DNA from: Tyzzerella sp.
Lineage (GTDB): Bacteria; Bacillota; Clostridia; Lachnospirales; Lachnospiraceae
Assembly: GCA_017410145.1 (NCBI GenBank)
Contig: JAFQRJ010000030.1
Location: 62,001 to 126,000, forward strand
Reading direction: 5' to 3'
DNA length: 64,000 nt
Translations under genes and position numbers: made by a program
Notes under the pieces: model-generated
The model's database searches: none
What the model was told of the DNA's origin: nothing
Seen by the model: the letters and a program-made list of their open reading frames with translations, nothing else
Shown: positions 1 to 64,000 of the stretch, piece after piece
How the letters are laid out: every line of letters starts with the position of its first letter
Numbering within the stretch: position 1 is the stretch's first letter

Positions 1-1893
1 TACACGGAGTGGCTTGGCACAGAGATAGTAAGTGGTGATGCTTGGGCTAAATTCGTAGAAGAAGATGTTTTAACTGCGAAACCACAGATTAAGTTGACAA
101 AAGATGCCGGGGGTAATGTTATTGTTCCGACAGATTCGACATCACTTCGTCTTGCAACGACAGTAGACGATTTGTTATATAGAAGAATTTCCTTCTATCT
201 TTCAAAAGAAACAGCAATAGATAGCGATACTTATAATGAAAATGAATTTAATACAGCTACAACCGATGAAAATGGAAGAATGGTGTATGAAAAACTGTAT
301 TACATTGGAGAGAACAAAGATACAACAGCAGGAACAGAAAGTTACAAACCGACTATCTTCTCATGGCAGTCAGATTACTTTAAGACATTTACATTGACAG
401 GTATTCCGGCTAGTGATTACAAGTTAAACATCAAAGTAGTTCCATACTGGATTACAATGGACGGAACGGAAGTACGAGGAAAAGAGTTGATTACTTGTGT
501 GGCTGATTATGTTCCGGGAATCAATACATCAGAGGCAGTTTCAATAGATTTTCTCGGAGAAAACACCATGCCGATTGCAGGCTACAACGGTCCGAACCGA
601 GCAACACATGCAACGGACACCATGTTGTTCCCAGACACCGTTACTGATGAGTATTTCAAAATGGTTGCAGATGCAGGAGTGAATGTCATTATCGGTACAA
701 ACCTAGATTATGCAGCAGACCCAGACATGGTGAAGGATGCATTGGCATTGGGTGAAAAATATGGTATTGGAATTTATGTAAAGGATAGTAGCATTTATAA
801 CATGAAAACAGCAGATGCTGTAAGAGCCCAGATTTCAAACTATTCGAATTATGAATCGTTTGCCGGAATGTTCATTGTGGATGAGCCGGGAACAGAGAGT
901 TTTCTAAAAAATACTGAGAATGGATATGCTCCTGACTATACATTGTTAGTGGGAATTTTAGAAGGTTTGGGTATCACATATTATGCAAACATGTATCCGA
1001 TTGTAGATGCAGACAAAGAATGGTGGGAAAATATATTTGGTGCACAAGGTATCAATGATACGGACAAAAATGCTTATAAAACATATATTAGCGAGTTCAA
1101 TAGTGCGCTGAATACGAAGGTGATGTCATATGATTATTATCCATTTGATGAGAAACGAAAGAATGATAGTGGTGAATATGATTTGAGTCTGTACTTCTGG
1201 AACATGGCAACTGTCCGTGAACAAGCTCAACTTCTTAACAAGCCATTCTGGGCATATGTGCAGGCCGGTTCACAGTGGAATGATGAACAAAACTATATGA
1301 CATCTACAACACCGTATTATCCGAGTGAGTCACAGTTTAACTGGAATCTAAACACTTCGCTTGCATTTGGTGCGCAGGGTATTCAGTATTTTCCACTTGT
1401 TCAAGTGAACTACTATGCATATGGCTCTGATGCAGCGCATTGGGATTTTGAGCGTAACGGTCTAATCGGTGCATGGGGCAACAAGACACAGTGGTATGAT
1501 TATGCACAAGATGCTAACGCACATATTGCAGCAATTGACAGTGTCCTGATGAATTCATATAGCGAACAAATTATTGCCAGTGGTAGTGCACAAAGTACTA
1601 CAAGTGGATTAACAGATGTGACAACAGATGCATCATACGGAGTATTGAAGACTGTATCTGGGGATGCTCTGGTTGGATACTTTGATTATTGTGGTAAGAC
1701 AGCTCTCTATGTTGTGAATTACCAGATGTTTGAAGGAGAAGCGACAACGACTCAGAATGTTACATTGTCATTTGATAGTGCACATAACATCACAAAGATT
1801 GAAAATGCAGAGACAACGAAAATAAGTGAAAATACAGATACTTTAACGCTGACTATGGAACCAGGAGAAGGTATTCTCCTCGTAATCGAGTAA
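1..1893 (+). CDS. TIM-barrel glycoside hydrolase-like protein, 5'-truncated by window edge
   Basis: The reading frame is open from base 1 to the TAA at 1891-1893, so the N-terminus lies outside the window and 630 residues are visible. The N-terminal third looks like beta-sandwich sequence. The middle (from about 'PIAGYNGPNRATHATD') reads like a (beta/alpha)8 barrel: strands such as 'GVNVIIGTN', 'GIGIYVKD', 'FAGMFIVDEPG', 'VMSYDYYPFD' and 'KPFWAYVQAG' follow each other at barrel-like spacing. The Glu of 'FIVDEPG' sits where clan GH-A-like enzymes carry a catalytic acid. A C-terminal beta domain ends in 'PGEGILLVIE', common at the end of such hydrolases. I cannot assign a numbered family. It precedes a small peptide gene and a sugar-binding lipoprotein, so a role in extracellular glycan breakdown is inferred. 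Confidence 0.75.
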   Translation, partial: YTEWLGTEIVSGDAWAKFVEEDVLTAKPQIKLTKDAGGNVIVPTDSTSLRLATTVDDLLYRRISFYLSKETAIDSDTYNENEFNTATTDENGRMVYEKLYYIGENKDTTAGTESYKPTIFSWQSDYFKTFTLTGIPASDYKLNIKVVPYWITMDGTEVRGKELITCVADYVPGINTSEAVSIDFLGENTMPIAGYNGPNRATHATDTMLFPDTVTDEYFKMVADAGVNVIIGTNLDYAADPDMVKDALALGEKYGIGIYVKDSSIYNMKTADAVRAQISNYSNYESFAGMFIVDEPGTESFLKNTENGYAPDYTLLVGILEGLGITYYANMYPIVDADKEWWENIFGAQGINDTDKNAYKTYISEFNSALNTKVMSYDYYPFDEKRKNDSGEYDLSLYFWNMATVREQAQLLNKPFWAYVQAGSQWNDEQNYMTSTTPYYPSESQFNWNLNTSLAFGAQGIQYFPLVQVNYYAYGSDAAHWDFERNGLIGAWGNKTQWYDYAQDANAHIAAIDSVLMNSYSEQIIASGSAQSTTSGLTDVTTDASYGVLKTVSGDALVGYFDYCGKTALYVVNYQMFEGEATTTQNVTLSFDSAHNITKIENAETTKISENTDTLTLTMEPGEGILLVIE

Positions 1894-1915: not shown

Positions 1916-2059
1916 ATGATGAATTATCAAGAGCCAGAAATGGAAATTATTAGATTTGAGTCAGTCAGTGTCATTACAGATTCAACATTGTATGTACCAG
2001 GAGATGGAACAAACACAGGAGGTGGCACATCAGAAGGTACTGGCTGGGGTGGATTTTAA
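1916..2059 (+). CDS. Small acidic peptide with YxxPxM motif (47 aa)
   Basis: This short frame starts at ATG 1916 (a second ATG follows at 1919), 5-6 bases after GGAGGGAG, and stops with TAA at 2057-2059. The product begins 'MMNYQEPEMEIIRFESVSVI' and ends in a Gly/Thr-rich tail finishing 'GTGWGGF'. It has no signal peptide, membrane segment or cysteine. Two other peptides of similar size and layout occur in this window at 53182 and 59143; all share Y-x-x-P-x-[LMF], then an aliphatic pair, an N/R-x-F and an acidic Ser/Thr segment. The strong ribosome binding site, start and tight spacing to the upstream hydrolase support real translation. The function is unknown. The Y-x-x-P-x-L element resembles the leader motif bound by RRE domains in lasso-peptide pathways, but no modification gene is visible. 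Confidence 0.7.
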   Translation: MMNYQEPEMEIIRFESVSVITDSTLYVPGDGTNTGGGTSEGTGWGGF

Positions 2060-2162: not shown

Positions 2163-3761
2163 ATGAAAACAAAAAAGATTTTATGCATGATACTTTCTTT
2201 CATCATGGCAATGCTTACGTTAAGTGGATGTGGCTCGAATAAGACTGGTTCTGAAGGAGAGCAAGCAAATAATTTGGAAATTTATATTTTAGATGCTGGA
2301 TATGGTACCGAGTGGTTGAAAGACATTAAAGATGCCTTTGCAAAGGAAAGTTGGGTTCAAGAAAAATATCCGAATTTGCAGATTGATATTTCAACCAATG
2401 CAGAACAATCTTTTGCAGAAGGTAAAATCACTGCGGGTGCGAAGGCGAATGATTTTGACATACTTTTTGGCGTTAATTTACAAACTTTATTCGGCAAACG
2501 AGGTTCAGATAAACAACCGTATCTTGCTGATTTGACGGACGTGTATGAGGGAACAGTTCCGGGAGAAGAAGTGAAAGTTGGCGATAAACTTTTAGAAAGT
2601 GCAAAGATTGCAAACCAATATACCGATTTGAGTGGAGAAGCTCATTACTATTCACTGCCATGGGCAGGTGGTCTTGCAGGTGTTTTATACAATGCAGATC
2701 TGCTTGCTGAATATGGTGAAGTTCCTGTGACAACAGATCAGATGCTTGCGATCATGGCAAAAATCACAAAAGATAGAGGTTACTCAATTATTCAGTCTAG
2801 TAATGGTACAGATGGTGCATGTTATTGGGAGCATTTATACCCAACATGGTGGGGACAATATGAGGGCTATGAAGGATACATGAGTTTCTGGAATGGTCAA
2901 GTAAATGGAGAATATTCAAAGGATATTTTCAAACAACAAGGAAGATTAGAGTCATTAAAAACATTGGAAAAAGTTCTAGGAACAAAAAGTAAGAATTTGT
3001 ATGAAAGTTCGAATGCTTTGTCTTTCATGGAAGCACAGACAAACTTCTTAATGGGTAACGGAGTATTTATGGCTTGTGGTGACTGGTTTGATCGTGAAAT
3101 GAGTGTTGTAAAAGAAGGACTGAAAAAAGAAGGATATGATTTTGATATTCAAATGATGAAGACTCCGGTTATTAGCTCAATTATTAACAAAACACCATCT
3201 ATCAAAGATGATGCGACTTTAGCAGCAGTTATTAAGGCAGTAGATAATGGGGAAACAAGCTATGCAGATGTAACGGCAGAAGATTTTGCAATCATAGCTG
3301 AGGCACGTCAGATTGTATTCTCAGTAGGAAACTTACATAACGCAGTGGTTCCAGAATATTCAACATCAAAAGATCTTGCAAAAGATTTCCTTCGCTATTT
3401 AGCAACTGATACAGCAAATGAAATTTATGCAAAACAAACTGGTGGCTCAGGTATGTTCTACAAATATGATTTACAGGCAAAAAACCCTGATTTATACAAG
3501 ACACTTTCAGGAACTGCAAGAATGAGAGCAGACTTTTTCAGCAATTCCATTTATCCGGCAAAGGTTTTACCTAGCCCTAATAACTTTAACTTATTTATTT
3601 ACGGTGGTGTTCGTCCATTAAATGCAACACAGTCAAACCAATTTGAAATTTTGTTTACACAGAAAAATCCGAAAACCGCACAGGAAATCTTTGATGCAGA
3701 TATCAAATATTGGAGTGATTCAGTTTGGTCAACCGTACTTGTAAATATCGGTGCAAACTAG
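2163..3761 (+). CDS. ABC transporter sugar-binding lipoprotein
   Basis: The 532-residue product starts with a lipoprotein signal peptide: 'MKTKKILCMIL', a hydrophobic stretch and the lipobox 'LTLSGC', so the mature protein should be anchored by its lipidated Cys. The rest has the pattern of a family 1 extracellular solute-binding protein: 'LEIYILDAGYGTEWLKDI' near the start, 'FDILFGVN' in the first lobe, and 'SNGTDGACYWEHLYPTWWG' in the binding region. ATG 2163 follows AAAAGGAGAGG. No permease or ATPase genes lie beside it in this window, so its transporter must be upstream or elsewhere. It sits between hydrolase genes, so it probably captures oligosaccharides released by them. The ligand is not predictable. 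Confidence 0.85.
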   Translation: MKTKKILCMILSFIMAMLTLSGCGSNKTGSEGEQANNLEIYILDAGYGTEWLKDIKDAFAKESWVQEKYPNLQIDISTNAEQSFAEGKITAGAKANDFDILFGVNLQTLFGKRGSDKQPYLADLTDVYEGTVPGEEVKVGDKLLESAKIANQYTDLSGEAHYYSLPWAGGLAGVLYNADLLAEYGEVPVTTDQMLAIMAKITKDRGYSIIQSSNGTDGACYWEHLYPTWWGQYEGYEGYMSFWNGQVNGEYSKDIFKQQGRLESLKTLEKVLGTKSKNLYESSNALSFMEAQTNFLMGNGVFMACGDWFDREMSVVKEGLKKEGYDFDIQMMKTPVISSIINKTPSIKDDATLAAVIKAVDNGETSYADVTAEDFAIIAEARQIVFSVGNLHNAVVPEYSTSKDLAKDFLRYLATDTANEIYAKQTGGSGMFYKYDLQAKNPDLYKTLSGTARMRADFFSNSIYPAKVLPSPNNFNLFIYGGVRPLNATQSNQFEILFTQKNPKTAQEIFDADIKYWSDSVWSTVLVNIGAN

Positions 3762-5641: not shown

Positions 5642-8600
5642 ATGTTGAAAACAAAATGGAAAAAGATTTTACTTGTTACGGTTCCGACTCTTGTTGTCTT
5701 TGGACTAGTTTTATTTCTATTATTTTGGTTCAAGTCAAAGAATACAACGGGTAATGTATTAAAAGTAGAATTTTCCGAAACGATTCCAGATGCAGAACTT
5801 GGTGTGGAATACGACTTTGAGCCTTATATATTGAAACAAGAGGATACAGAGTATTCGATGACGGCACAGTACCTGGATGATAATTTTGAATACCAAGATC
5901 TTGAAGTGGATGGATTTAAGTTTACACAGAATGAACTTTCTGACGTTTATATTACAGTAAATGCAAAACGTGGTGAGCTGACTGCCACAGGAGAAGTGAC
6001 TGTTAAAGTCGTGACGAATCCGGACCCGATTGACAAATGGCAAGTTAGTGTATGGTCAGAAGGTGGATTTACAAAGAAACTGAATACAGACCCACAATAT
6101 CTTGCTTCTGAGGAATCAAATTCTTCTATTAAAGTTGAATATATGGGGAATGGGATACTAGGAACACCGCTTTCTATCTTCCCGTTATTGGATTTTGACA
6201 CAGATAAATATATTTCCGTAGAAGATTGGAGTAATGCAGTTCTTACATTTGATGTTTACAATCCGATGGATGAAGAAATTACATTTGGAATGCTTATAAA
6301 ACATCAAGCGTTAGAGGTAAATACTCATTTTGCGCAAAACCCGCAATTCGTGGCTGCACCAAAGCAATGGACGCACGTTGAGTACTCATATCGCTCAATG
6401 TCGGTTACAGAAAACTTTGTATTTGATGAAGAATTTGAAAATTCAGACCACAATATTGTTCAGGTAACATATAGCGGTGCGACAGAAGATGAGTCGGCTT
6501 ATGTATATTCATTCTATGTAGATAATCTTGATATTTGTGATTATGATGCGGAAAGATTCCCAGACTTGGATATCAATATCTATAATGAACATAAGGATTT
6601 CTTGTCTTCAGATGATGCAATGGCAGTGTTCGTAAATAATGTTGCAATCAAAGATGCAATAGCAGCAACAAAATCAACGGAAAAAGTGTCTGAATATAGC
6701 AGACAATCCGTTAAAATTACACTTTCAAATACGGGAAAAGCTGCCACTGCAATGGTTCACTCATTTATCGGAGGTAACCCTACCGGATGGAAACCTTTGG
6801 ATATTACAAATGCTTCTTTGAGTATTGACGTGTTGCCTATCAATGCGGATAATAAAATGACTATCAGATTTGAGTCGGATTACAATGTATTTGGACGAGA
6901 TATCGTCATTGACTTAGGTGATAATACAAGTGGAAAAGGCTGGACATGTACGAAGTTATCCAATGGTTGGTATCGCGTTTCGCTAGATGTGAAAGATGCG
7001 GATATCGGTTCGGCTATGGTAGAAAGTGATTTCATTCGTTGTATGCGTATGTATTTTTCAAATAATGCAGCTACAGCAGGGAAAGCATCTGTTGTGTACC
7101 TAGATAATTTGAATATGACAGGTTATACAACGACACCACATCCTTTGGACGAAGATAATGCATGGGATACGATGTCGCCATATACCAAGATTGAAAAAGA
7201 TGACATTGTTTCTCAAGATGACGATACAAGAGTATTGATTGATGGTAAGGAATTACCAAAGGATAAAGTGAATCATCAGAAAGCAGTTGTTAGTAAAGAT
7301 AGTTTGATGGCTCTTAAAGTTACAATGTCAGAAAATGGTAAGAAAGTTAATGCAGAAACCAGATTCACAATTGGTGGACACTATGTTGGATGGAAACCAA
7401 TTGACATTACAAATGCTACATTTAGTTTGGACGTTAAAGTAGTCAATGCAGATTCAACAGTTGTGTTAAAATTTGAGTCAGATGATAATCTGTTTGGAAA
7501 TGACATTAAGGTATTGCTTGGAAAGAATACAAGTGGAGCAGGTTGGACATGCAAGGAATTAGGCGATGGTTGGTACAGAATATCAGTAATCCCGAAAAAT
7601 GCTAATGTTGAGTGGGGAATGTTCAAACTTGATTTTGTAAAATACTTACGTGTATGCACAACTAATAGTAGTGCAACATCCGGAGAGTCTGCAGTATATT
7701 TGGATAATCTTAAAATGAGTGGACACAAAAAGACATCGGTGAAATTACAGTCGAAAGAACCATGGTTGACACCATCTCCTTATACAGCAATCGAGGATGG
7801 AGACCTTATTAATCTTACAATAGAACAATGTAACATGGATAAAGCTGTAATGGATAGAAACGTGTTGAGCGATCATAGTGCACAGTCACTTCGACTTGAG
7901 CAGAATTCTGGCAAGGAAGATTCTATTCAATGGTCTGCAGTATTCATTTCTGAATTGAACAATTGGAAAGGTGTAGATCTACGTGGAAAGGTTATTTCTT
8001 TTGACCTTAAGACAGAAAACTATAATAGTTGGGTAGGAATTAATATAGAACATACGGAACAAGGAATGCTCGAGGGTGTTTATTTCAATCCAACAGTAGG
8101 TGCAAAAGACAGTCGCTATGAATGTGTTGCACTGTCAAATGGCTGGACTCGTGTCTATGTGTATGTAGAATCTGCATGGGGTGATTACTGCGACTCGGTG
8201 TATAAGATTATGTATACAACCAACACAGAAGGTTCTAACAAAGAAAAAGCGTGTGCGATAAACATAGACAACCTAAAACTTTTGCCAGGTGATGAGAAAC
8301 AAGATGCGTCAAATGTATACTCGGAAATTGCAGACGGCAGCTTAACTGGTTTGACATTTGACCATTCAGTACAATATGGCGATAGCTTTAAATCATTGAA
8401 ACTCACCCTAACTTCGAAGAATGAAGAGACATGGGGATGCGCTGACTTGCAGATAGCAGAACTTACGAGTTGGAAGCCAGTTAATCTCAAAGGGAAAACG
8501 ATTTCCTTTGACGTGAAAACAGTCAATGCAGGTAATATTGGTATTGCACTTGAAACACCAGGTTATGGCATGTCAGAATATGTGTGGATTGATTTAGCGG

Positions 8601-52255: not shown

Positions 52256-53161
52256 ATGCTTTACAGAACAAATATCACAAACATCGGAGACCCATTTGTG
52301 GTCTTCGATGGAAAAGAATATATTATGTACGCTACAACTTTTGACGCAAAGGGATTCCGTTATTACACTTCGGAGAATCTTACAGACTGGAAAGACGGCG
52401 GTCTGGCACTTGACCTGTCAGATAGTTGGGCAGACAAAGACTTCTGGGCACCAGAGGTGATTCAAAGACCGAAAGACGGAAAATATGTCATGCATTTTTC
52501 GGCTCGCGGAATAAACAATAAAAGCCTTCGTATCGGTGTAGCCGTAGCTGACAATCCACGAGGACCGTTTGTGCAAGTGGCAAATGAGCCAATGTTTGAC
52601 TTTGGCTATGCGGCAATTGACGGACATGTATTTATCGATGACGATGGACAAGCTTACTTGTATTATTCACGAGATTGTTGCGAAAACCTTATTGGTAAAG
52701 CGCATGTGAGTCAGATTCATGTAGTAAAGCTGAATGACGATCTGACAAAAGTGACAAGCGGACCAACCCTTTTAACAACTCCGACTTATCCTTTTGAACA
52801 TGATGGCGATGGTTCATGGATCTGGAATGAAGGCCCGGCTGTGCTAAAGAAGGATGGAAAATATCATCTGTTCTATTCAGCAAATTATTATGCAAGTAGA
52901 AAATACTGTGTCTGTGTGGCAACATCAGATAAGCCAGATGGTGATTTCGTGAAATCGGAAGAGGAAAATCCTATCCTACATGCAGATATGATAGATGTGG
53001 ATTTTTCCGGACCGGGACACAACAGTTTTTTTAGAGATAAAGAAGAAAACTTAAAAACTGCATTCCATATTCATACGGATGCAAACAAGCCGAGTGATAA
53101 TAGAAGGGCTTGTATTGCAGATGTAGTGTATGAGGATGGGAAGTATGGGATTGTGCTATAG
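52256..53161 (+). CDS. Cytoplasmic GH43 glycoside hydrolase (copy 1)
   Basis: The 301-residue protein lacks a signal peptide and is a minimal GH43 propeller: 'NIGDPFVVFDGKEYIMYATT' with the base Asp, 'DFWAPEVIQRPKDGKY', 'AAIDGHVFIDDDGQAYLYYS' with the second Asp, and 'WIWNEGPAVLKKDGKYHLFY' with the acid Glu. It would release arabinose or xylose from imported oligosaccharides. A copy at 58215 has the same length and differs by eye at about 40 positions. It is followed 20 bases later by a 41-residue peptide gene. ATG 52256 follows AAGGAGAAG. Confidence 0.88.
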   Translation: MLYRTNITNIGDPFVVFDGKEYIMYATTFDAKGFRYYTSENLTDWKDGGLALDLSDSWADKDFWAPEVIQRPKDGKYVMHFSARGINNKSLRIGVAVADNPRGPFVQVANEPMFDFGYAAIDGHVFIDDDGQAYLYYSRDCCENLIGKAHVSQIHVVKLNDDLTKVTSGPTLLTTPTYPFEHDGDGSWIWNEGPAVLKKDGKYHLFYSANYYASRKYCVCVATSDKPDGDFVKSEEENPILHADMIDVDFSGPGHNSFFRDKEENLKTAFHIHTDANKPSDNRRACIADVVYEDGKYGIVL

Positions 53162-53181
53162 AAGTCAGAGGAGGGAATAAA

Positions 53182-53307
53182 ATGGAAAGAAAAGAATTAT
53201 ATAATTCACCGGAGCTTCAGGTGATTAATTTTGTTGACAATCGGGATATTGTTACTGCATCAGGCGATGGAGACCAAGATGTTTGGCAAGAAGATATATT
53301 TGACTAG
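53182..53307 (+). CDS. Small acidic peptide with YxxPxL motif (41 aa)
   Basis: ATG 53182 lies 6 bases after GAGGAGGG and the frame stops at TAG 53305-53307. The product begins 'MERKELYNSPELQVINF' and ends with an acidic, Trp-containing tail 'DVWQEDIFD'. No signal, membrane segment or Cys is present. It shares layout with the peptides at 1916 and 59143: Y-x-x-P-x-[LMF], an aliphatic pair, F, then 'DIVTAS'. It sits between the cytoplasmic GH43 gene and the next giant protein gene. The function is unknown. Confidence 0.72.
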   Translation: MERKELYNSPELQVINFVDNRDIVTASGDGDQDVWQEDIFD

Positions 53308-53321
53308 GTGTGGAGGCTTCT

Positions 53322-56300
53322 ATGAAAAAATTAGTAAAATTTTTTATGGTAAATATTTTTATAGTTACGATGCTCATTGCAATGTTTCCGTCAAAATCTG
53401 TAGAAGCAGCGGGAACCCAAAACCCGCTGGTTTCTATCGATTTTGCACAGGGTGCAGGCAATGTAACACTTACTGGTGCTGAAATTGTCAATGATTCCAT
53501 TCGAGGTAATGTTCTGAAACTGAATGGTACTGGAAGCCGTACATCCTATGGTACTTACACAACGGACGTCTTTCAGAATAACGACTGGACAAATGGGATG
53601 ACGCTTTCTGCGTGGATTCAGACGAGCGAAGGCAGTAATGTGCACGGCACAACACCAATCTATTGTGTTGATATGGCCAATCGAGGCTACATTGCTACGT
53701 TGTGTTCTCTGGAGACGACAACAAATACCAATGGAAATGAAGGAGGCTTTGTTGAACCATGTCTCTGGAACGACCCGGCAGATGCCGCAACGGGCACAAA
53801 CAAGACTACGGAGGGTGAGTGGCAACTGGTGACAGTTGTATATGATCCTGTAGCGAACAACATGAGAATCTATATCAATGGTGAATATTACTCTACCAAT
53901 ACAATTAATAACGGTGATATTGCAACTTTAATGACACAGATTACGATTGCCAAATCCATTACCTTAGGCTCGTGGAATTGTTCTTGGTGGCAGCATGGCG
54001 ATTATAAAGGAATGATTGACGATTTTAAACTTTGGAATCATGCTTTGTCTGAAACTGAAATCAAGGAATTATATCAATCTACAAAAGCCGAGGAGCAAGG
54101 CTTGTTTGAAATGACTCAAGGAGGCTCCATTCGTATTGCGATGCCTTATGGACTCCGATTCCAAGTTAAAATGGATTCAGATGTTAAAACATATGTGGAA
54201 CAGAAAAGTGGTAAAGTAGGAATGTTTATCTTCCCGGCTGATTATCTTGTGGATAGTGGCAAAGAGGGTGATGTGCATTACAAAAATGTAGAAGAATTAG
54301 TGAATAATGCGCCGAATGATCATCGAATCAATCTGGATTTAACCAGTAAATTGTATGAAAAAGACGGTTACTGGTACGGAAACGGAGCCATTGTAAATAT
54401 CAAAGATAAGAATATGTCACGTGAATTTGTAGGCATTGCTTATTATGAAGTGAATGGCGTACGCATCTTAGCACATACAAGTAGCGTGAAAGATACAACA
54501 AGAAGTGCGGCACAGGTAGCACTATTAACTCATGCGGATAAAACAAATGAGTTCTCTGATGAGGCAGATAAGTTACTTGTCAATTATATTGACCACTTGA
54601 AACTAGCCGGTGTAGAAGATAGTGCACCTAGTCGCTATAAAGTTCGTGGATTTGCGGCAGATGACGGGTTGCATATTTATGCGGTACAGTATGTTGATAA
54701 TGTTGTTCAAACTGGGAATGAGTGGAATGAACAGACACATCTGGAGGCACAAATTTGGCAACATAATATGGGATATGGTGTAGACCATGGTCTGGCTGTA
54801 GATACATACTGTGCATTTTTCTTAAATGGAAACTACTTCCTCAACAACCCGACAAATACAACGGTTGAGTATAATTGTGTAATCAAAGATCGGGGCAATA
54901 CAGAAGAATATCGCTATGAAATCTGTTATGAGATATTCCTACAGTTTCCAAATAATGTGGGAAATCCTGAGGGGCCATATGCATTTGTACAGTTCAAACA
55001 TCATATGCCAAAAGAAGAGGCAGTTGGTTTTGAAAATGCCCATAAAGTGCATTGGGAGGATACCCGTTACTTGTGGCAAGACAAGAGTGAATCCACTGAA
55101 TTTCGTTTGACAGGTATGGTTGAACAACCAATGGGGATTACACGTTATGCGGAGAAGATAGCAGATCGTAAGTCACAGTGGGAAGAAAAAGGAACCGATG
55201 GAAAGACGACATTGTTTATCGGAGACTCTTTCTTTGACACCGATTTTTGGACTGATTTTTATACCAACTATTATGCCGGAAAAGATGCACTGTTACTTGG
55301 TATAGGCGGAACCACCACTTATGATTGGGAAACATGGGCGACTGAGTGGTTAAAAGACATTCAGCCAAAGAATATTGTAATGCATATGGGCACCAACAAT
55401 ATATATGATGATGGGGATGATGCAGAATGCACCGTTTTGGCACTTCAAAAAATGTTTGGGGTGATACATAAAAACGTTCCGAACACACCTATTTATTGGT
55501 TTGGAATTTCCTATCGTTCATATGGTGAAGCAAAGATTGCGAAAGCAAAAGAGATTAATGCACAGATGAAAACGTGGTGTGAAGGGCAAGAGTATATCAC
55601 TTATATTGACACACCGGATAAGTTGGCAGCAGACATGTTGTCGGATGGAACCCACCCAAAGGTGGAATCCTACTACGTATTTGCAGATGCATTAAAAGAG
55701 ACAAATATAGAGATTGAAGATAGTGCGTTGCCGGTGAAAAGCGATGCACCTACCCGTTATTCCGTATCTGGTTATGCAGCAAATAATGGACTATATCTCA
55801 AAGTGAAACAGTATGTGAATCAATACGTGACGGAAGGTGATGTATGGTCAGAACAGACGCACTTGGAAGCATCCATCTGGCAGCATAATATGGGACATGG
55901 TGTGGCAAATAGCCTTGGAGTTGATACCTATTGCAGATTTATGTTAACTGATACGGATGGTGACTCGAATTATGATTATGATATTAACAATCTAACGAAT
56001 ATTAAGAATGTCACCAATCATGTGACCATTACCGAACGAAGCGAAGGTTATCGTTATGAAATCTGCTATGACATCTTCATTGAATTTGACAATAATGTAG
56101 GAAGTGCTGATGGACCATATGCGTTTGTACAGTTTAGACATCATATGCCTGGCGAATCCCAGGAAGGATTTGAATCAGCATATATGGAACACAGAGATGG
56201 AAGCCGTTACTTATACCGAGATAACTGTAATTCTTATGAATTCCGTGCGGCTGGTATCGTGGCAAAGAAGGTAGATTATCTTTCGACAACAGCTGACTAT

Positions 56301-58193
56301 AATAAAGAGTTGTTTTACCAGAATCAAGGAACGATTCAGGCGGCGGACCCAAGTGTTATCACAGTAGGAGACACATTCTATCTGTATGCTACAGATGCAC
56401 AAGAGGGATATGATTGCACCTCAATCCGTGTATGGTCTAGTAAAAACCTTACAGATTGGATTGAAGTTGGACAGGCTTTTAGACCGGCTTCAGATGCTTG
56501 GGCAGTAAGTGACCTTTGGGCAGCAGAAGTGATTGCAGCCAACGGAAAGTATTACATGTATTATTCGGGTCGTAATCGCGAAACCGAATTGATGGGAGTT
56601 GGTGTAGCGGTTTCTGATTCTCCAACGGGTCCATTTAAAAATGAACAACCAATTGACTTGGGATTCCCTGCAATCGATCCAAATCCATTTATAGATGATG
56701 CTGGAAATGTATATCTTTATGTATCGCAAGATCAAGTGAATAAGGTTTCGGCAGTCTATGGATGTAAGCTGGCGAGCGATATGGTTACAATCGAACACAT
56801 TTCAGAGGGACCACTTGTTGAACCATCTGAAAGTTGGGAATATCCAAACGGGAACAAATCATGGAATGAGGCACCATATGTATTTAAACATGGTAATAAG
56901 TATTACTTAACATATTCTGCAAATTTCTATCAAAACAAAGATTATGGATTAGGACTGGCAGTTAGTGATAATCCATTGTCCGGATTTGAAAAAGTGGATT
57001 ATAACCCATTCTTTGTGGTAGATGATGCATGGACACATGTATCTGGTACAGGGCACTGTAGTTTCTTCCCATCACCGGATGGCACGGAACTTTGGGTTGC
57101 ATACCATAGTCACATTGACACAGAAAAAGGAGGATATCAACGAAAGATTAATTTTGATAAAGTCACATTTGACAATGACGGAAGACTGGTTATATCAGGA
57201 CCTTCCGTTACACCGCAAGTACTTCCGTCTGGAGTATCTGATTACGGAAACATTGCATCGAAAGCGACTGTATCAGCGACACAGGATGAAAATGTTGGTC
57301 TACTTACAGACGGAATTGTAAATTATCGCACCGCAAATATAGATAGATATGAGTATAGTTCTACAGGCGCAAATACAATTACATTCACTTTTGATAAAAT
57401 TCAAAAAATTAAAGGCATTATGATTTATGACAGTGCCAATACAACAGTAGGTGGAAGTGAAGTGTCCGTGACTGTAGGAGAATATTCATACAATATGTCA
57501 CTGGATTCAAGTGATATTCCTGGAACAGCATCTATTTTGGAGATGGATGAGACAGAAGCAAGTGTTGTAACACTTACATTTGCAGGAGATGTAAGCCTAA
57601 GCGAGATTGCAATTCTTGCAGATGTACAGATTGAGAAGCCGGAAGGATTTCCGGAAATAGCTGATTTTTCAACTATTGCTAGTGACTTACAATCTGTGGA
57701 TCCAGATATTTATAATTTCCAAATGTGGACCACAGACAGTGGACTTTATGCTTATTTTGTTCAAATAGTTCCAAATGTAACGTTGACTGAACAAGATAAT
57801 TTTAACAACACTCACGTAGAGATGGAATTGTGGAACCACTGTGTAGGTTGGGGGGCTCAAACTGGCGCTGGAACTTATATTGGTCTGTTCCCGGATGAGA
57901 GTATTTACATTAACAATGAAACTAATGTAAAGAGTAAGTCTTTGTGTGTAAATCGCGTTGAACTCATTAGTGGAGAGACAAGAATTGAGTATTATTTCTA
58001 TTTGGAATTTGATAACAATTTGGAGAACCCGCAAGATGGACCATACGCATATGTAAAACAATATCAATTCTTGCCGGGGGTAAGTACAAACGGATTGAAT
58101 TCCCAAGTGGTTGAGCGAGATAGATTACTTCTTACAGGAACTGAAAAATCATTCCAAGTGCATGCAACCATTGATGAAAAGATGTATCACTAG
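53322..58193 (+). CDS. Giant secreted SGNH esterase-GH43 fusion with LamG and recurrent modules
   Basis: I chose ATG 53322, 5 bases after GGAGG, over GTG 53310 because it gives a clean signal peptide ('MKKLVKFFMVNIFIVTML' to 'SVEAAG'). The 1623 residues hold a LamG/laminin-G-like domain (about 35-255), an uncharacterised 'GGSIRI' module (about 260-426), a recurrent binding module (about 433-601), an SGNH hydrolase (about 620-796, 'FIGDSFFD', 'MHMGTNNIYDD', 'DGTHP'), a second binding module (about 807-983), a GH43 propeller (about 993-1310, triad in 'AADPSV', 'AIDPNPFID', 'WNEAPYV'), a discoidin-like domain (about 1310-1436) and a variant module. It combines esterase and glycosidase on one chain. 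No wall-anchor motif is seen. Confidence 0.88.
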   Translation: MKKLVKFFMVNIFIVTMLIAMFPSKSVEAAGTQNPLVSIDFAQGAGNVTLTGAEIVNDSIRGNVLKLNGTGSRTSYGTYTTDVFQNNDWTNGMTLSAWIQTSEGSNVHGTTPIYCVDMANRGYIATLCSLETTTNTNGNEGGFVEPCLWNDPADAATGTNKTTEGEWQLVTVVYDPVANNMRIYINGEYYSTNTINNGDIATLMTQITIAKSITLGSWNCSWWQHGDYKGMIDDFKLWNHALSETEIKELYQSTKAEEQGLFEMTQGGSIRIAMPYGLRFQVKMDSDVKTYVEQKSGKVGMFIFPADYLVDSGKEGDVHYKNVEELVNNAPNDHRINLDLTSKLYEKDGYWYGNGAIVNIKDKNMSREFVGIAYYEVNGVRILAHTSSVKDTTRSAAQVALLTHADKTNEFSDEADKLLVNYIDHLKLAGVEDSAPSRYKVRGFAADDGLHIYAVQYVDNVVQTGNEWNEQTHLEAQIWQHNMGYGVDHGLAVDTYCAFFLNGNYFLNNPTNTTVEYNCVIKDRGNTEEYRYEICYEIFLQFPNNVGNPEGPYAFVQFKHHMPKEEAVGFENAHKVHWEDTRYLWQDKSESTEFRLTGMVEQPMGITRYAEKIADRKSQWEEKGTDGKTTLFIGDSFFDTDFWTDFYTNYYAGKDALLLGIGGTTTYDWETWATEWLKDIQPKNIVMHMGTNNIYDDGDDAECTVLALQKMFGVIHKNVPNTPIYWFGISYRSYGEAKIAKAKEINAQMKTWCEGQEYITYIDTPDKLAADMLSDGTHPKVESYYVFADALKETNIEIEDSALPVKSDAPTRYSVSGYAANNGLYLKVKQYVNQYVTEGDVWSEQTHLEASIWQHNMGHGVANSLGVDTYCRFMLTDTDGDSNYDYDINNLTNIKNVTNHVTITERSEGYRYEICYDIFIEFDNNVGSADGPYAFVQFRHHMPGESQEGFESAYMEHRDGSRYLYRDNCNSYEFRAAGIVAKKVDYLSTTADYNKELFYQNQGTIQAADPSVITVGDTFYLYATDAQEGYDCTSIRVWSSKNLTDWIEVGQAFRPASDAWAVSDLWAAEVIAANGKYYMYYSGRNRETELMGVGVAVSDSPTGPFKNEQPIDLGFPAIDPNPFIDDAGNVYLYVSQDQVNKVSAVYGCKLASDMVTIEHISEGPLVEPSESWEYPNGNKSWNEAPYVFKHGNKYYLTYSANFYQNKDYGLGLAVSDNPLSGFEKVDYNPFFVVDDAWTHVSGTGHCSFFPSPDGTELWVAYHSHIDTEKGGYQRKINFDKVTFDNDGRLVISGPSVTPQVLPSGVSDYGNIASKATVSATQDENVGLLTDGIVNYRTANIDRYEYSSTGANTITFTFDKIQKIKGIMIYDSANTTVGGSEVSVTVGEYSYNMSLDSSDIPGTASILEMDETEASVVTLTFAGDVSLSEIAILADVQIEKPEGFPEIADFSTIASDLQSVDPDIYNFQMWTTDSGLYAYFVQIVPNVTLTEQDNFNNTHVEMELWNHCVGWGAQTGAGTYIGLFPDESIYINNETNVKSKSLCVNRVELISGETRIEYYFYLEFDNNLENPQDGPYAYVKQYQFLPGVSTNGLNSQVVERDRLLLTGTEKSFQVHATIDEKMYH

Positions 58194-58214: not shown

Positions 58215-59120
58215 ATGCTTTACAGAACTAATATAACAAATATCGGAGACCCATTCGTGGTCTCCGATGGAGATAACTATATTATGTATGCCACAACCTT
58301 TGACGCAAAAGGCTTTCGCTATTACACTTCTGAAAATCTTACAGAGTGGAAAGATGGCGGCGTGGCACTTGACCTGTCAGATAGCTGGGCATACAAGGAC
58401 TTTTGGGCTCCGGAAGTCATTCAAAGACCTACGGATGGAAAATATGTAATGCATTTTTCAGCCCGTGGTAGAGAGAATAAAAGTCTTCGCATTGGTGTGG
58501 CTGTAGCGGATAAGCCACAGGGGCCATTCATACAAGTGAAAAATGAGCCGATGTTCGATTTTGGATATGCAGCAATTGACGGTCATGTGTTTATTGATGA
58601 GGATGGTCAAAGCTATCTTTATTATTCCAGAGATTGCTGTGAAAATGTGATAGGTGATAGCCATGTCAGTCAGTTGTACGTAGTGAAGTTAAACGATGAA
58701 TTGACAGAGGTGGTGGGAGAACCCAAGCTTCTTACCACACCGACCTATCCATACGAGCATGATGGAGATGGTTCGTGGCTTTGGAATGAAGGACCAGCAG
58801 TTCTTAAGAAGGACGGAAAATATCATTTATTCTATTCGGCGAATTATTATGCCAGCAGAAAATATTGTGTATGCGTAGCGACTTCGGACAAGCCGGATGG
58901 TGATTTTGTGAAATCGGAAACGGACAACCCTATCTTACATGCGGATATGTTAGATGTGGATTTTTCAGGACCAGGACACAACAGTTTCTTTAAAGATAAA
59001 AAAGGTAGCTTAAAAACGGCATTCCATATTCATACAGATGCAAGCAAGCCAAGTGATAACAGAAGGGCTTGTATCGCAGATGTGGTGTATGAAGATGGTA
59101 AGTATCTAATTGTGTTGTAG
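58215..59120 (+). CDS. Cytoplasmic GH43 glycoside hydrolase (copy 2)
   Basis: The 301-residue protein is a duplicate of the 52256 product with the same length, start ('MLYRTNITNIGDPFVV') and triad ('IGDPFVVSDG', 'AAIDGHVFIDEDG', 'WLWNEGPAVLKKDG'). Most differences are conservative and cluster around the region after 'VVKLNDELTEV'. ATG 58215 lies 7 bases after AAGGAGG and 21 bases after the giant gene, a spacing identical to that of the first copy. It is probably kept for dosage or for a slightly different substrate. Confidence 0.88.
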   Translation: MLYRTNITNIGDPFVVSDGDNYIMYATTFDAKGFRYYTSENLTEWKDGGVALDLSDSWAYKDFWAPEVIQRPTDGKYVMHFSARGRENKSLRIGVAVADKPQGPFIQVKNEPMFDFGYAAIDGHVFIDEDGQSYLYYSRDCCENVIGDSHVSQLYVVKLNDELTEVVGEPKLLTTPTYPYEHDGDGSWLWNEGPAVLKKDGKYHLFYSANYYASRKYCVCVATSDKPDGDFVKSETDNPILHADMLDVDFSGPGHNSFFKDKKGSLKTAFHIHTDASKPSDNRRACIADVVYEDGKYLIVL

Positions 59121-59142: not shown

Positions 59143-59280
59143 GTGATACAAAAAGAATCTTATACCTCTCCGCAATTCGCTGTGTTGAACTTCAATTTAG
59201 AAGAGTATGTCAACACGACGATGAATGATGTTATTTCTGCATCTAATGATGTGTATGAAGATGACCCGTTTGATATTTAA
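59143..59280 (+). CDS. Small acidic peptide with YxxPxF motif (45 aa)
   Basis: GTG 59143 follows AAAGGAGGG with 9 bases between, and the frame stops at TAA 59278-59280. The product begins 'MIQKESYTSPQFAVLNF' and ends 'DVYEDDPFDI'. It has no signal, membrane segment or Cys. It occupies the same place as the peptide at 53182, between the duplicated GH43 gene and a giant secreted protein gene. Conserved features are Y-x-x-P-x-F, the aliphatic pair, F, and a V-I-S-A-S stretch. Its function is unknown. Confidence 0.72.
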   Translation: MIQKESYTSPQFAVLNFNLEEYVNTTMNDVISASNDVYEDDPFDI

Positions 59281-59297: not shown

Positions 59298-62200
59298 ATG
59301 AGAAAGGGAAAAATAAGAACGCTATTTTTAAGCATTTTAACAGTTCTATGCAGTGTGTTTGTCGTGTGCATAGGACAAGAAAGCAAGGTTTTAGCGGCAG
59401 AAAGTAAGTTTGAAATGACGCCAGGCGGTTCCATTCGTATCGTAGAACCTTATGGATTAAGGTTTCAAGTGAGGATGAGTGCCGATGTGAAGGAGAAGGC
59501 AACAGAAGTAGGAATGTTAATCTTCCCTGTTGATTATCTTGAGAACAATGGCACAGATGGCGACGTGTACTATGAGAGCGTTGAAGAACTTGCTAAGACC
59601 AATCAGACAAATCACAGAATAAAACTTAATCTAACAAGTAAGTTGTTTGAAAAGGACGGCTATTGGTATGGTAATGGTGCTATTGTCAACATCAAAGATA
59701 AAAATATGACACGTAAATTTACTGCTATTGCATATTATGTAGATGGTGATAATACTACTGTATGGGCTGATACGACCCGACTTACAAATACAACAAGAAG
59801 TGCATCTCAGATTGCGCTTTTGGCACATGCTGATAAAACAACTACATATCAAGCAGAGACAGATAAATTACTTCTGAAATATGTTGGTTATACAAAGGAT
59901 TCTGATTTGAAGGATGTAAAAATAGGGGCAATTCCTTTGTTTGTAGATAACGGTGACAACGTTGCTAAATCATACTGGAGTGCAGAATATGTAGATGGTG
60001 GCGTTAAGGTTATGATAGACGTGAACGATACCATATCTATTGATGCAAACGACCTGGGATATAGCGACAATGTTGAAATTCAAATGCAAGCAGTTGATAA
60101 TCACTGGAAAACAAAAGGAGCAACATTGAATTTCTTATGTGATGCAAGTGGAAGAACGTGGTCGCGTTGTTGGAATGGATATGGATATGATGCAATTGAA
60201 TTAGCGGCTGAAGATTACAACTGCAATTTTAATGCAACGGAAACAGGCTATCAAGTGGAATTGTTTGTTAGTTACCGTGCATTAAATTCAACAGAAGCAG
60301 AAGCAAAAGGCAATGTTCGTATTTGTCCGATGCTCCGTAATCGTTCTGATGCAGGAAATAACGCAAGTTTAACATCAGAGTTATTAGGATGCAACTGGTT
60401 CTCAACGAAATCATGGCTTGTTTTGAATACAGATAATAAATTTATTCATTCATACTCGGAAGAGTTTACATTAGCATCGAAAAATGCAGAAGCATCAAAT
60501 ATTCTTAAAAACATGGCTACACTTAGAGCAGACAATGGTGGCAAGATGATGAAGACAGAAATGGGAAATCAAGCCCATATGGATAGTTCTTGGTGTATTG
60601 ATGGTCTTGCAAGTGATTTAATTGGAACAAACTATGTGTTCATGGGACTTGATGGAAGAGCGACTGTAATGACAAAAGGAAATGTTGTTATTTGTATAAG
60701 CGATGATAATGTGGCATTGGCTTCACAGTTTGTAGATAATGGCTGGAATCTGTTGGCTACAAAGTGCAGGGCAGCAATGGGAATCAATGGCGGTTTTGAC
60801 GGAGCACTTTCTAGCACAACTTCTTACTATTACAAATATTGTAATGAAGGTGAAACAATAGCAACTTCAGGTGTATATAGTCTAGTATTCGGAAAGGGAG
60901 CTATTAAAAAATCAGACCTGGTATATGAAACAATGTCTGCTTATCACAGTTTCTCTGCTGTAAATAAAGACTATTATAAGGAAATCAACAATACAATGAA
61001 TGGAATGCCTTCAGTGGCTGTAACGAATGGAGGCAGAATCTATACTATTTATATGACAGGTGCAGACGGCGAGTACCAAATGAAAAATAGTGGTGTCTTA
61101 AAATATAGTGATGATAATGGTAAGACATGGAGCAATCTGTTTGTCATTGATACATGGAATAGTCAAAAGATTAATAGTACGAAACAAATAGTAGCTAGTG
61201 ATTTTGAATTAAAAGTAGATCCAAATACAAATGTACTCTATGTTACATATACAACACGTCCAAATGCAAATGGTGTAGTACCAATGGATACACAGACATG
61301 GATGTTCACAGTTTCTAATCCGGATTCAAAGGACATGTCTGAAGATGTATTGGATATTAGTAAACATTGGAATACAGAATTGGGTTATGTAAGAAACGGA
61401 TTTACCGTTTTAAAGAATGGTGATTTTATCATCGTTCCGGATGAAACAAAACAGTCAGCAAAGAGTCCTGTTTATATCTCAAAGGACAAAGGACAAACAT
61501 GGGATGTTCTTGGACAGATTTATATGCCACAGGCAACAAGTTTTGATGAATCTGTCATCGTTGAAAGAAAAGATGGTTCACTCATGTGCTTTGCTTGTAC
61601 TCAAACAGGTTTCTTGTGTACAAGTTCATCTTATGATGGTGGAAAAACTTGGTCTGTTGGTAAATTGACTGACATACCAAACCCAACAAGCAGATTTGCA
61701 GTTACTTGTCTTGCAAGTGGAAATCTTGTAATGGTATCAAATAACAATTCATCTAATAGAATTGGAATGGTGGTTTCTATTTCAAAGGATAATGGTAATA
61801 CATGGGAAGATAAGATTTGTCTTTTCGATGGATATGCATCATATCCAACTGTGGCTCTTGATCAATCCACAGGAAAAGAAAGAATTCACATTGTATTCGA
61901 TGATGGACGATACTACTATGGTCAATGGCGTACTGGCGTAGAAGAAGGTACGAAGTATGAATATTATGCTGGAATTTATCATGATATCTTGACAGAAGAA
62001 GAAATTTTAGCAGGTGGAGATCCAAATGCGGATGAGTTGGAATTGCTCTTTGTGGGAGATTCTTACACGGACAGACCATGGTGCTTAGGTTTTGACAATG
62101 CACTTGGAACATATGGTGCAGATACAATTGGTATTGGTGGAACAGAGGTTTACCAATGGAATAACGAAACAAAACTTGCAGAAGTAGTAGCAAAGAATCC

Positions 62201-64000
62201 TAAGAATCTCTTTATTAATATCGGTATTAATAATATTGGAAATGCTCGAGAAGATGGTGAAACAACAGGTAATCAAGTGGTTGCTTATTTGGAAGCGTTG
62301 AAAGCGGCATTACCAGATACTGAAATCTACTACAACATGCTTGTGTATCCTACAACTGGCTGGCATGATTACAATTCAATTACAGTATCCAATGCTATTG
62401 TAGAAGCCTATATTGATGGTGATACAAATGACAATGTACACAAGATTGATATACGTGATGATATTAAGAGATGTGGTGAGGCTGATGGAGCGAAATTCAA
62501 TGACGGTTTACATATGTCTGCACCAGGATATACAATTCTTTTTGATAAATTAAAAAAAGAAATTGGAATGGGAAGAAGTGCGGATGAGTTAAATATTGTT
62601 AGCAGTATAGGACAAGAAGTTTCCAAATATAAATGGGCTAAGTGGGAAGATTGCATGGTCCAGTCGAGCGCCCCTACTCGTTACAATGTACGAGGATATG
62701 CGGCTGATGATGGATTATATTTCAATGCAGTACAATATGTAGATAACATTGTTTCCACGGGAGATGTTTGGAGAGAACAAACACATCTTGAAATGGAAAT
62801 GTGGCAATGGAATGGTGTAGGAAGTAATACTGGCTTTGTCTATGGTGCATTCTGGTTGGATGGAAGCTATTATCTTGTTAATTCTGATAATGTTTTTCCT
62901 TATGGTGTTACCTTTGTAAAAAACAATGTAACCATCACTGATCGAGGAGAAAATTACACAGATGGTTATCGCTACAAAGTTTCTTATGAGGTTTATATCC
63001 AATTTAAAAATAATTTGGAAAATCCAAATGATGGACCTTATGCATATGTACACTTTAGGCATCATATGCCAAACGAAACAGAAGAAGGGTTTGAGCAAGC
63101 TGTTCTGGAACGGAGAGATAATGAACGTGATTTGTGGCGCGATGAATATAGTTCTTATGAATTCCGTAAAGTCGGCATTATAAGAAGAGATGGACTTAGC
63201 AAATTTGAGACGAATTTAGAACAGTGGAATGCTTTACAGAATACATGGATTCCTACAGAAAAAGGATATTATTCATATAGTATGGGGGATACTTTTGCAA
63301 TGTCTCAGACGTCTGCAACAAATTTCATTTATGAGGCAGATGTTCTTTTTGCTGAGAACAAAGGGGCTGCTTCGTTAGTATTCCGTTCAGGGGATGCTCC
63401 TTACGAGGGGTCTTATGTGGCAAATGTTGATAAATCACAGGGATTAATTCGTGTCTTCAAATTCCCGGGTGGGGCAAATATAGGAACAGCGCCATTGAAG
63501 GAGAACAAGAAGGATTATCACTTGCGAGTAGAAGTAGTGGGAGACTTGATTAAATTCTATGTGGATGGAGAATTGGCAGTAACAGGAAACGATGCCACAT
63601 TTGCAACAGGGAAACTAGGATTGTTGACATGGTATTCTACGGTTATCTATCAAAATGTAACATATCGTGAGATTACATCGGATGATGTTTTGGCATTGGA
63701 TAACTTGAAAGTGACAGGTGGAGATGTGCAAATGGCTCCATCATATAGTAAAAATGTTGCTTCATACAACGTATTTATGCCAGGCGGCACAGATGAAATC
63801 AATGTGCTAGCTACAGCAGGAGACGGTGTGGAATTAACATATGTACTGAAGAATGATAGTGGCGTTGTGTACGACAAGGGCAATATGGAAAGTGGTACAA
63901 AGCAAAAAATTACACCTTCATACGGAGTAAGTACTATGGTGATTAAGATGAAGAAAGGTGATATGGCATCTTCTATGACACTTAAAATCACAAATAAATC
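59298..64000 (+). CDS. Giant secreted Asp-box propeller-SGNH protein, 3'-truncated by window edge
   Basis: ATG 59298 after AAGGAAGGAAG opens a frame that stays open to base 64000 (1567 residues seen). A signal peptide ends about residue 34 ('LAAESK'). Then come a 'GGSIRI' module (about 36-195), a CBM9-like domain (about 215-375), a novel region, and a propeller with four Asp boxes ('YSDDNGKTWS', 'ISKDKGQTWD', 'SSYDGGKTWS', 'ISKDNGNTWE', about residues 602-840) of the sialidase/BNR type. An SGNH hydrolase (about 912-1090, 'FVGDSYTD', 'NIGINNIGN', 'DGLHMS'), a recurrent binding module (about 1110-1300), a LamG/CBM66-like domain and a cadherin-like sandwich follow. The FRIP arginine motif of true sialidases reads 'GMPSVAV', so sialidase activity is doubtful. 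Confidence 0.85.
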   Translation, partial: MRKGKIRTLFLSILTVLCSVFVVCIGQESKVLAAESKFEMTPGGSIRIVEPYGLRFQVRMSADVKEKATEVGMLIFPVDYLENNGTDGDVYYESVEELAKTNQTNHRIKLNLTSKLFEKDGYWYGNGAIVNIKDKNMTRKFTAIAYYVDGDNTTVWADTTRLTNTTRSASQIALLAHADKTTTYQAETDKLLLKYVGYTKDSDLKDVKIGAIPLFVDNGDNVAKSYWSAEYVDGGVKVMIDVNDTISIDANDLGYSDNVEIQMQAVDNHWKTKGATLNFLCDASGRTWSRCWNGYGYDAIELAAEDYNCNFNATETGYQVELFVSYRALNSTEAEAKGNVRICPMLRNRSDAGNNASLTSELLGCNWFSTKSWLVLNTDNKFIHSYSEEFTLASKNAEASNILKNMATLRADNGGKMMKTEMGNQAHMDSSWCIDGLASDLIGTNYVFMGLDGRATVMTKGNVVICISDDNVALASQFVDNGWNLLATKCRAAMGINGGFDGALSSTTSYYYKYCNEGETIATSGVYSLVFGKGAIKKSDLVYETMSAYHSFSAVNKDYYKEINNTMNGMPSVAVTNGGRIYTIYMTGADGEYQMKNSGVLKYSDDNGKTWSNLFVIDTWNSQKINSTKQIVASDFELKVDPNTNVLYVTYTTRPNANGVVPMDTQTWMFTVSNPDSKDMSEDVLDISKHWNTELGYVRNGFTVLKNGDFIIVPDETKQSAKSPVYISKDKGQTWDVLGQIYMPQATSFDESVIVERKDGSLMCFACTQTGFLCTSSSYDGGKTWSVGKLTDIPNPTSRFAVTCLASGNLVMVSNNNSSNRIGMVVSISKDNGNTWEDKICLFDGYASYPTVALDQSTGKERIHIVFDDGRYYYGQWRTGVEEGTKYEYYAGIYHDILTEEEILAGGDPNADELELLFVGDSYTDRPWCLGFDNALGTYGADTIGIGGTEVYQWNNETKLAEVVAKNPKNLFINIGINNIGNAREDGETTGNQVVAYLEALKAALPDTEIYYNMLVYPTTGWHDYNSITVSNAIVEAYIDGDTNDNVHKIDIRDDIKRCGEADGAKFNDGLHMSAPGYTILFDKLKKEIGMGRSADELNIVSSIGQEVSKYKWAKWEDCMVQSSAPTRYNVRGYAADDGLYFNAVQYVDNIVSTGDVWREQTHLEMEMWQWNGVGSNTGFVYGAFWLDGSYYLVNSDNVFPYGVTFVKNNVTITDRGENYTDGYRYKVSYEVYIQFKNNLENPNDGPYAYVHFRHHMPNETEEGFEQAVLERRDNERDLWRDEYSSYEFRKVGIIRRDGLSKFETNLEQWNALQNTWIPTEKGYYSYSMGDTFAMSQTSATNFIYEADVLFAENKGAASLVFRSGDAPYEGSYVANVDKSQGLIRVFKFPGGANIGTAPLKENKKDYHLRVEVVGDLIKFYVDGELAVTGNDATFATGKLGLLTWYSTVIYQNVTYREITSDDVLALDNLKVTGGDVQMAPSYSKNVASYNVFMPGGTDEINVLATAGDGVELTYVLKNDSGVVYDKGNMESGTKQKITPSYGVSTMVIKMKKGDMASSMTLKITNK

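Follow-up and report, generated by a model that had tools for sequence, protein, structure and literature searches.

Three very short genes in a 64,000-nucleotide stretch of DNA from a Tyzzerella species (hereafter the window) encode real peptides, members of a family with 19 copies found in the same genome, a Lachnospiraceae assembly that is 68% complete. These peptides are probably RiPP precursors of a kind resembling those of the linear polyphosphorylated peptides (LPPs); they would be served by an enzyme set encoded elsewhere in the genome, and would be exported as a core that may work with a partner surface protein.

All three genes lie on the forward strand, each packed between co-directional genes. 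Peptide 1 (1916..2059, 47 amino acids, ribosome-binding site at 1903-1908) has its leader, Y4 to F14, at nucleotides 1925-1957 and the conserved Ser23 of a T-x-S motif at 1982-1984, and its Gly/acidic tail ends in TGWGGF. Peptide 2 (53182..53307, 41 amino acids, ribosome-binding site at 53170-53175) has the head YNSPELQVINF...DIVTAS and an acidic tail, while peptide 3 (59143..59280, 45 amino acids, ribosome-binding site at 59129-59134), with a GTG start and the head YTSPQFAVLNF, is a divergent member. The strong ribosome-binding sites claimed for these frames of 47, 41 and 45 residues in an earlier note on this DNA are indeed present: GGAGGG stands 6-8 nt ahead of each, and the preceding gene ends 20-22 nt before each start. 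No family in Pfam, NCBIfam or PHROGs reached its cut-off with any of the three peptides, the weak matches being one to DUF7456 (E 0.0098, 15.9 bits where the cut-off is 27) and the other to a PHROG (E 0.07).

The same note had placed genes for exported proteins just downstream, and this is true of all three peptides, the next gene being exported-looking, on the same strand, and 103, 14 and 17 nt away, respectively. After peptide 1 comes an exported solute-binding protein (SBP_bac_1; 2163..3761, forward), and after peptides 2 and 3 come exported multidomain glycan proteins: one with Laminin_G_3, GDSL lipase, GH43 and SIRD domains (53322..58193, forward; its likely ATG is at 53322, the longest frame running from 53310), and one with SIRD, BNR_2 and GDSL lipase domains that runs off the end of the window (59298..63998, forward), so that the SIRD domain is common to both. 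Upstream, peptides 2 and 3 each follow a gene for a family 43 glycosyl hydrolase (52256..53161 and 58215..59120, both forward), and peptide 1 follows a gene that runs off the window start (1..1893, forward); no Pfam family was found for its stretch 94-1893, part of which matches our profile of P380, a group of exported partner proteins of about 340-400 residues. A domain GGSIRIVEPYGLRFQVRM... is shared by exported partners in the window (59298-63998 and 53310-58193) and at loci L057 and L080, with no Pfam match over it.

With peptide 1 alone as query, eight further sites were found in its own genome (E 7e-12 to 0.25). A profile built from eleven sequences (A2) gave 19 matches there, 18 of them at E<=0.01, and one built from 37 (A6) gave the same 19, all at E<=0.01, so the three copies seen by the earlier note were three of 19. 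They are spread over 13 contigs, including C14 but not C3. The family head reads Y-x-x-P-x-[LMF]-x-[IV]-x-x-F ... D-[VI]-[VI]-x-x-S and is followed by a variable acidic tail; the consensus is Y-E-x-P-E-M-E-I-x-x-F, D-[VI]-[VI]-T-x-S, followed by a short, variable end with many Gly, Asp and Glu residues. Among the 37 members the Tyr and the Pro are each kept in 36, the Phe in 29 and the Ser in 32, with the Ser at Tyr+19 in 27 of those 32. The conserved head and variable tail that had been described from three copies hold for the whole set, mean identity within the genome falling from 47% in the first 11 residues of the leader to 11% in the final 10. The shared motif is beyond chance: on 60 RRE loci (873,606 bases) profile A6 made 19 matches at E<1, 16 of them at E<0.01, and on the reversed sequences it made none. 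The motif is also conserved in other genomes, in relatives (one of which, G004, has 13 precursor matches and one RRE) and probably beyond the Lachnospiraceae. One copy on contig C11 (L054:6994-7107) lies 204 nt after a Sortase-domain gene (7312-8151) and before what appears by eye to be an rpsF/ssb-like region, with no obvious glycan gene run around it.

The head is under purifying selection. Over the 11 leader codons of the 19 copies pN/pS was 0.56 (with pS near saturation), as against 0.89 over the last 10 codons; in the leader of the paralogues C18b and C27 pN was 0.07 and pS 0.58, and for an orthologous pair from two relatives (G005 and G006, 37 codons) the values were 0.18 and 0.79, the latter saturated. 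The exception to the leader pattern of pN below pS was the comparison of peptide 1 with its nearest paralogue, C8, where 44 ungapped codons (pN 0.41, pS 0.50) showed little constraint over the whole length. There is next to no chance that these are attenuator-type leader ORFs or chance frames in which translation matters and the peptide does not: short frames just upstream of operon genes, and the weak constraint between peptide 1 and C8, would suit that idea, but an amino-acid motif kept across phyla, the empty search of reversed sequence, pN well below pS in the C18b/C27 leader and the G005/G006 pair, and the several copies that stand after an exported gene all speak against it.

How might such scattered peptides be matured? 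In a sample of 61 genomes, with the peptide query taken from the Tyzzerella genome (G000) alone and the RRE query from Pfam, all nine peptide-positive genomes carried PF05402, which was present in 31 of the 61 (E<=0.01; p=0.0012). Among 150 genomes of the family (149 genera), 12 of 12 peptide-positives carried the RRE, found in 43 of the 150 (p=8.9e-8) and thus also, in the same kind, in 31 of the 138 peptide-negatives; removal of three weak matches (G062, G127 and G178) left nine of nine (p=6.8e-6). Within the genus it was present in six of six positives and none of four negatives. The family and genus tests are not independent, because positives contributed sequences to the query alignments A6 and A3 (from the 150 genomes, these were G000, G016 and G034; from the genus, every one of the six), a dependence that the 61-genome test alone avoids, and the p-values ignore relatedness among genomes. 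In G062 two frames (L198:6405-6770 and 10319-10771) with the related leader KYEKPxxxxxxxxEGVYAASG represent a different precursor type, near genes for a 422-residue RRE-containing protein, an S26-like peptidase and an exporter.

In the Tyzzerella genome the RRE is encoded on contig C3 (L075:10562-10825), together with a signal peptidase (the one strong match in the genome), a membrane protein weakly like polysaccharide deacetylase, and an exporter. The probable kinase (E 1.6e-92 to profile A5) is encoded on C20 next to a small membrane protein, and two NTP_transf_5 proteins (PF14907) are both on C14. None of the 19 precursors is on the RRE contig, and the link between peptide and RRE therefore rests on co-occurrence and on relatives. 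In six of these (G005, G006, G034, G111, G021 and G153) the peptide is encoded within the enzyme cluster. G005 has two such runs, one comprising exported protein, peptide, S26-type peptidase, kinase, RRE, ABC exporter and NTP_transf_5, and the other peptide, membrane protein, exported protein, kinase, RRE and peptidase. Faecalimonas umbilicata DSM 103426 (G006) has kinase, RRE, peptidase, exporter, membrane protein, a 3638-residue M26-type surface protein and peptide; G034 has kinase, RRE, peptidase, NTP_transf_5, a BspA-type LRR protein, peptide and membrane protein; G021 has kinase, RRE, peptidase, exported protein, peptide, exporter and an NTP_transf_5-like protein, with a gap in the middle; G153 has peptide, exported protein, membrane protein, kinase, RRE, peptidase and exporter; and G111 has exported protein, peptide, lipoprotein, kinase, RRE, two exported proteins and a protein with a peptidase-like start. 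Judged by gene order and strand, each run would be a single operon. At three places in G162 a peptide and an RRE are separated by no more than about 0.5-2 kb. The genome-level link to RRE and peptidase genes, which the earlier note had proposed looking for, is thus seen in the joint gene runs of relatives and, for the RRE, also in co-occurrence in all three samples.

Two observations on these runs may be added. The 3638-residue protein of F. umbilicata (L080:4543-15459), which carries M26 IgA1-endopeptidase domains, shares its gene run with RiPP-type enzymes and a peptide. Four loci (L075:11270-12223, L084:2636-3586, L086:10549-11502 and L080:3164-4309) encode a membrane-anchored protein, about 317-381 residues long, with a weak likeness to the PIA N-deacetylase IcaB; it sits between peptidase and exporter in three hubs and adjoins a peptide in G006.

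Among 60 named RRE loci the peptidase is present at 57, the kinase at 51, the two together at 48 and NTP_transf_5 at 19, and a family peptide (E<1) was found within the searched flanks of 18. Five of these 18 are from Bifidobacterium or other Actinomycetota (L132, L135, L140, L148 and, at E 0.47 only, L141), and the sequences point to probable family members in Bifidobacterium and Coriobacteriia. Gordonibacter pamelaeae, Bifidobacterium simiarum, B. scaligerum and B. tissieri (L132, L135, L140 and L148) have RRE, signal-peptidase and kinase genes together with YxxP peptides.

By its sequence the C3 protein is a discrete PqqD-type RRE of the lasso/LPP type. At E<0.001 the RRE profile matched only TbiB1, TfuB1, LppB (9x8z) and PbaB1 (9x90) in the PDB, all discussed as RRE-leader complexes in the main text of Popov et al. 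(2026; PMC13381572). In the solved LppB complex described there, Asp70 holds the leader Tyr and Asn33 fixes a kink at the Pro (PMC13381572); the former aligns with the nearly invariant Asp71 of the family RREs and the latter with their invariant Asn34. The peptidase has Ser25, His63 and Asp78 invariant in 11 of 11 members, these being the kinds of residue used by LppS (PMC13381572, main text), and its best NCBIfam model is the archaeal-type signal peptidase I TIGR02228 (E 0.0018, below cut-off). Conserved in the kinase family are a GTGKSTH loop and N-x-DKP; against Pfam the first member had no family, with one weak ABC_tran match among 28 members, and the best matches of the family to known structures, PEPCK (1ii2, E 0.011) and HprK (1ko7, E 0.11) among them, are all weak, so that the description HprK/PEPCK-like is only probable. 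The exporter beside the RRE is an MsbA-like ABC_membrane/ABC_tran protein.

In most of these respects the system recalls the LPPs, which have been described in Bacilli (Popov et al., 2026) and are called restricted to Bacillota in the main text of that paper, where words beginning Lachnospir or Clostrid are absent (PMC13381572). Shared features are the YxxP leader, the discrete RRE, the archaeal-type signal peptidase, the MsbA-like exporter, the NTP transferase, variable tails, polysaccharide-related surroundings and a conserved Ser (at Tyr+18 in LPPs, Tyr+19 here); the HprK-like kinase of LPPs may have its counterpart in the P-loop kinase-like family noted above (on C20, and at 51 of 60 loci), weak though its match to known HprK is. 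The LPP consensus, however, is YxxPxVLxHQxIxFETxxS, the leader ending in F-E-T with cleavage after T-1 and phosphorylation of S3 (PMC13381572), whereas here ...VLxHQxIxFETxxS is replaced by ...[LM]x[IV]xxF...D[VI][VI]xxS, with HQ and FET absent. LPP clusters have one to three precursor ORFs each (PMC13381572), in contrast to up to 19 unlinked precursors per RRE here, none of those in the Tyzzerella genome lying in the enzyme cluster; further differences are that the neighbours include exported proteins and tail-resembling membrane proteins, and that there are probable members in Actinomycetota. Because the full LPP consensus is not present, we describe the system as LPP-like and stop short of classing it as LPP.

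The earlier note had pointed to Y-x-x-P-x-L as the leader motif that RRE (B1) domains bind in lasso-peptide biosynthesis. As lasso precursors the peptides would have this leader read by a lasso B1 protein, and would be cut by a B2 peptidase and cyclized by an asparagine-synthetase-like enzyme. A [Y/W]xxPx[L/V] leader and a discrete RRE are indeed lasso features, and the paeninodin type adds an HprK-like kinase and an NTP transferase (lasso features as given in PMC13381572); moreover, the models that best match the RRE here are NF033530 and NF033536, both for lasso PqqD proteins, although neither match reaches the cut-off. But the leader has Tyr, not Trp; B2 (PF13471) has no match at E<=1 in the 68% complete Tyzzerella genome; the cyclase motif SGGxDS occurs in just one of 78 RRE/peptide loci, in a frame that by eye is NAD-synthetase-like; and a signal-peptidase-type protein is present in 57 of the 60 named RRE loci. 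A lasso product is accordingly not supported, and we regard the lasso reading as very improbable.

The neighbourhoods of the peptides suggest another kind of association. Of the 19 Tyzzerella copies, 17 have one or more exported neighbours on their own strand, several copies standing after, not before, the exported gene. By a simple hydrophobicity rule 18 of 38 neighbours look exported, compared with 32 of the 184 other genes in the stretches examined (p=1.6e-4). The next gene encodes a P380 protein at eight sites (a tandem pair on C11 being counted once, and the P380 on C14 being split in two frames), one P380 member having a weak Listeria-Bacteroides repeat match. At seven of these eight sites P380 is followed by a small single-pass membrane protein with an acidic linker; as homology among the latter is partly driven by acidic low complexity, we claim no single family for them. 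Conceivably, then, the peptides are not RiPPs but small adaptors (chaperones, anchors or regulators of the exported partner) that act in glycan operons and never meet the RRE pathway. The frequency of exported neighbours, and the recurrence of P380 and of the small membrane proteins, would accord with this, but it leaves unexplained both the association with the RRE, in co-occurrence and in runs of peptide, kinase, RRE and peptidase, and the division of conservation between leader and tail, and we think it improbable.

The LPP-like reading can be set out as a series of steps, of which RRE binding, cutting, phosphorylation and export are proposed by analogy with LppA, LppB, LppS and LppK. Each precursor gene would lie close against the gene of an exported surface or glycan-active protein, and the two would probably share a transcript. 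One discrete cytoplasmic RRE (C3) would bind the Y-x-x-P-x-[LM] leader; the HprK/PEPCK-like kinase (C20) would phosphorylate the conserved Ser of D-[VI]-[VI]-x-x-S, with the NTP_transf_5 enzyme (C14) perhaps acting after it; and the archaeal-type signal peptidase beside the RRE would cut just before that Ser, its position at Tyr+19 in place of the LPP Tyr+18 leading us to expect the cut after [VI][VI] or T. The MsbA-like exporter, also beside the RRE, would then export the core, and one machine would thus serve about 20 scattered precursors. The suggestion of the earlier note that the peptides may be precursors for an unlinked modifying system, with a YxxP leader read by an RRE, fits the co-occurrence, the gene runs in relatives, the scattered enzymes of the Tyzzerella genome and the conserved RRE residues that hold Tyr and Pro. 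Prochlorosins provide a precedent, in that one modifying enzyme (of the lanthipeptide type) serves many genome-scattered precursors; the likeness lies in the many precursors per enzyme set, and no family relation is claimed.

An alternative that overlaps with this scheme, and differs from it in chemistry only, is that these are true RiPP precursors whose main modification is something other than phosphorylation, for example glycan linkage by NTP_transf_5 or by an enzyme of the glycan operon. NTP_transf_5, encoded at 19 of the 60 named loci and twice in the Tyzzerella genome, and the glycan context would favour such a modification, and the LPP final product was not identified by its authors (PMC13381572, main text); on the other side, the kinase is the commoner of the two enzymes, and the Ser is kept in most members of the family, so we consider this alternative unlikely, though not negligibly so.

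On the LPP-like reading, the role of the core at the cell surface is a matter for conjecture. Outside the cell it would most likely work with the partner surface protein and, at many loci, also with the small single-pass membrane protein, which can carry a similar tail. Trp occurs in the last seven residues of 11 of 19 Tyzzerella peptides, eight of 22 other peptides, 12 of 22 membrane proteins (a list chosen by homology and by eye) and seven of 11 P380 proteins, compared with 26 of 390 in the background. Moreover, the tails of the peptides resemble the C-terminus of the neighbouring single-pass membrane protein more than shuffling would give. With 18 hand-picked pairs p was 6.5e-4 overall and 0.12 within genomes. 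A search limited to 6 kb, in which the closest small single-pass protein was picked automatically, gave 32 pairs from 70 peptide matches at 65 loci, some of which overlap (p=5e-5); after removal of one duplicate locus, the remaining 31 pairs gave p=2e-5 against shuffled pairs and 0.008 when shuffling was within genomes. The 11 Tyzzerella pairs alone gave p 0.023, and G016, G162 and G004 alone (two, four and three pairs) were not significant.

The resemblance is clear in about eight of the 31 pairs, a score of at least 28 being reached by eight true pairs and by 3.7% of mismatched ones; most pairs have no clear match. Clear tail pairs share DEDGWTxIIVKP (G016, L090: 7525-7746 and 6701-7441), EYELPFIP (G016, L041: 1441-1572 and 820-1419), ELPFVP (G004, L219), DLPEVPI/ELPAVPI (Tyzzerella contig C9, L051), GW[ST]GYY (G162, L195), DTPIG (L179) and DD..WG (Tyzzerella contig C11, L053). 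In the L090 pair, five of the 11 shared residues have synonymous codon differences, and the match has therefore been kept at the protein level and does not reflect recent copying. Peptides 1-3 have no such membrane protein on the same strand within 6 kb.

According to the positive-inside rule the tail of the membrane protein would lie outside the cell, and with both tails outside, the simplest reading is that one extracellular partner would read both; the co-encoded exported protein is the first candidate for this partner. A more specific scheme, which we offer tentatively and regard as rather doubtful, is that one set of RRE, kinase, peptidase and exporter matures the 20 or so scattered peptides, every one of them dedicated to an exported surface protein encoded with it, and that exported peptide and membrane-tethered partner carry the same C-terminal ligand. 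Free peptide and tether would then compete for, or jointly engage, one extracellular receptor, and so determine whether the surface protein stays on the cell, or at which place.

In the open-access papers searched we found none beyond PMC13381572 on such Lachnospiraceae peptides or on an RRE/S26/HprK set in gut bacteria. What is new here is the number of scattered precursors per RRE (up to 19), the exported neighbour at 17 of 19 copies, the probable members in Bifidobacterium and Coriobacteriia, and the resemblance of tails.

Mining for RiPPs usually seeks precursors beside their enzymes, and most precursors of the Tyzzerella genome would be missed in this way, because they are seated in runs of genes for glycan and surface proteins. 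The occurrence of the enzymes in Bifidobacterium and Coriobacteriia suggests that the set reaches into these groups. A class of phosphopeptide-type RiPPs is now tied to particular neighbours (GH43, BNR-repeat, BspA-type LRR, M26-type and carbohydrate-binding surface proteins), and with such concrete neighbours the role of LPP- and paeninodin-type peptides becomes directly testable.
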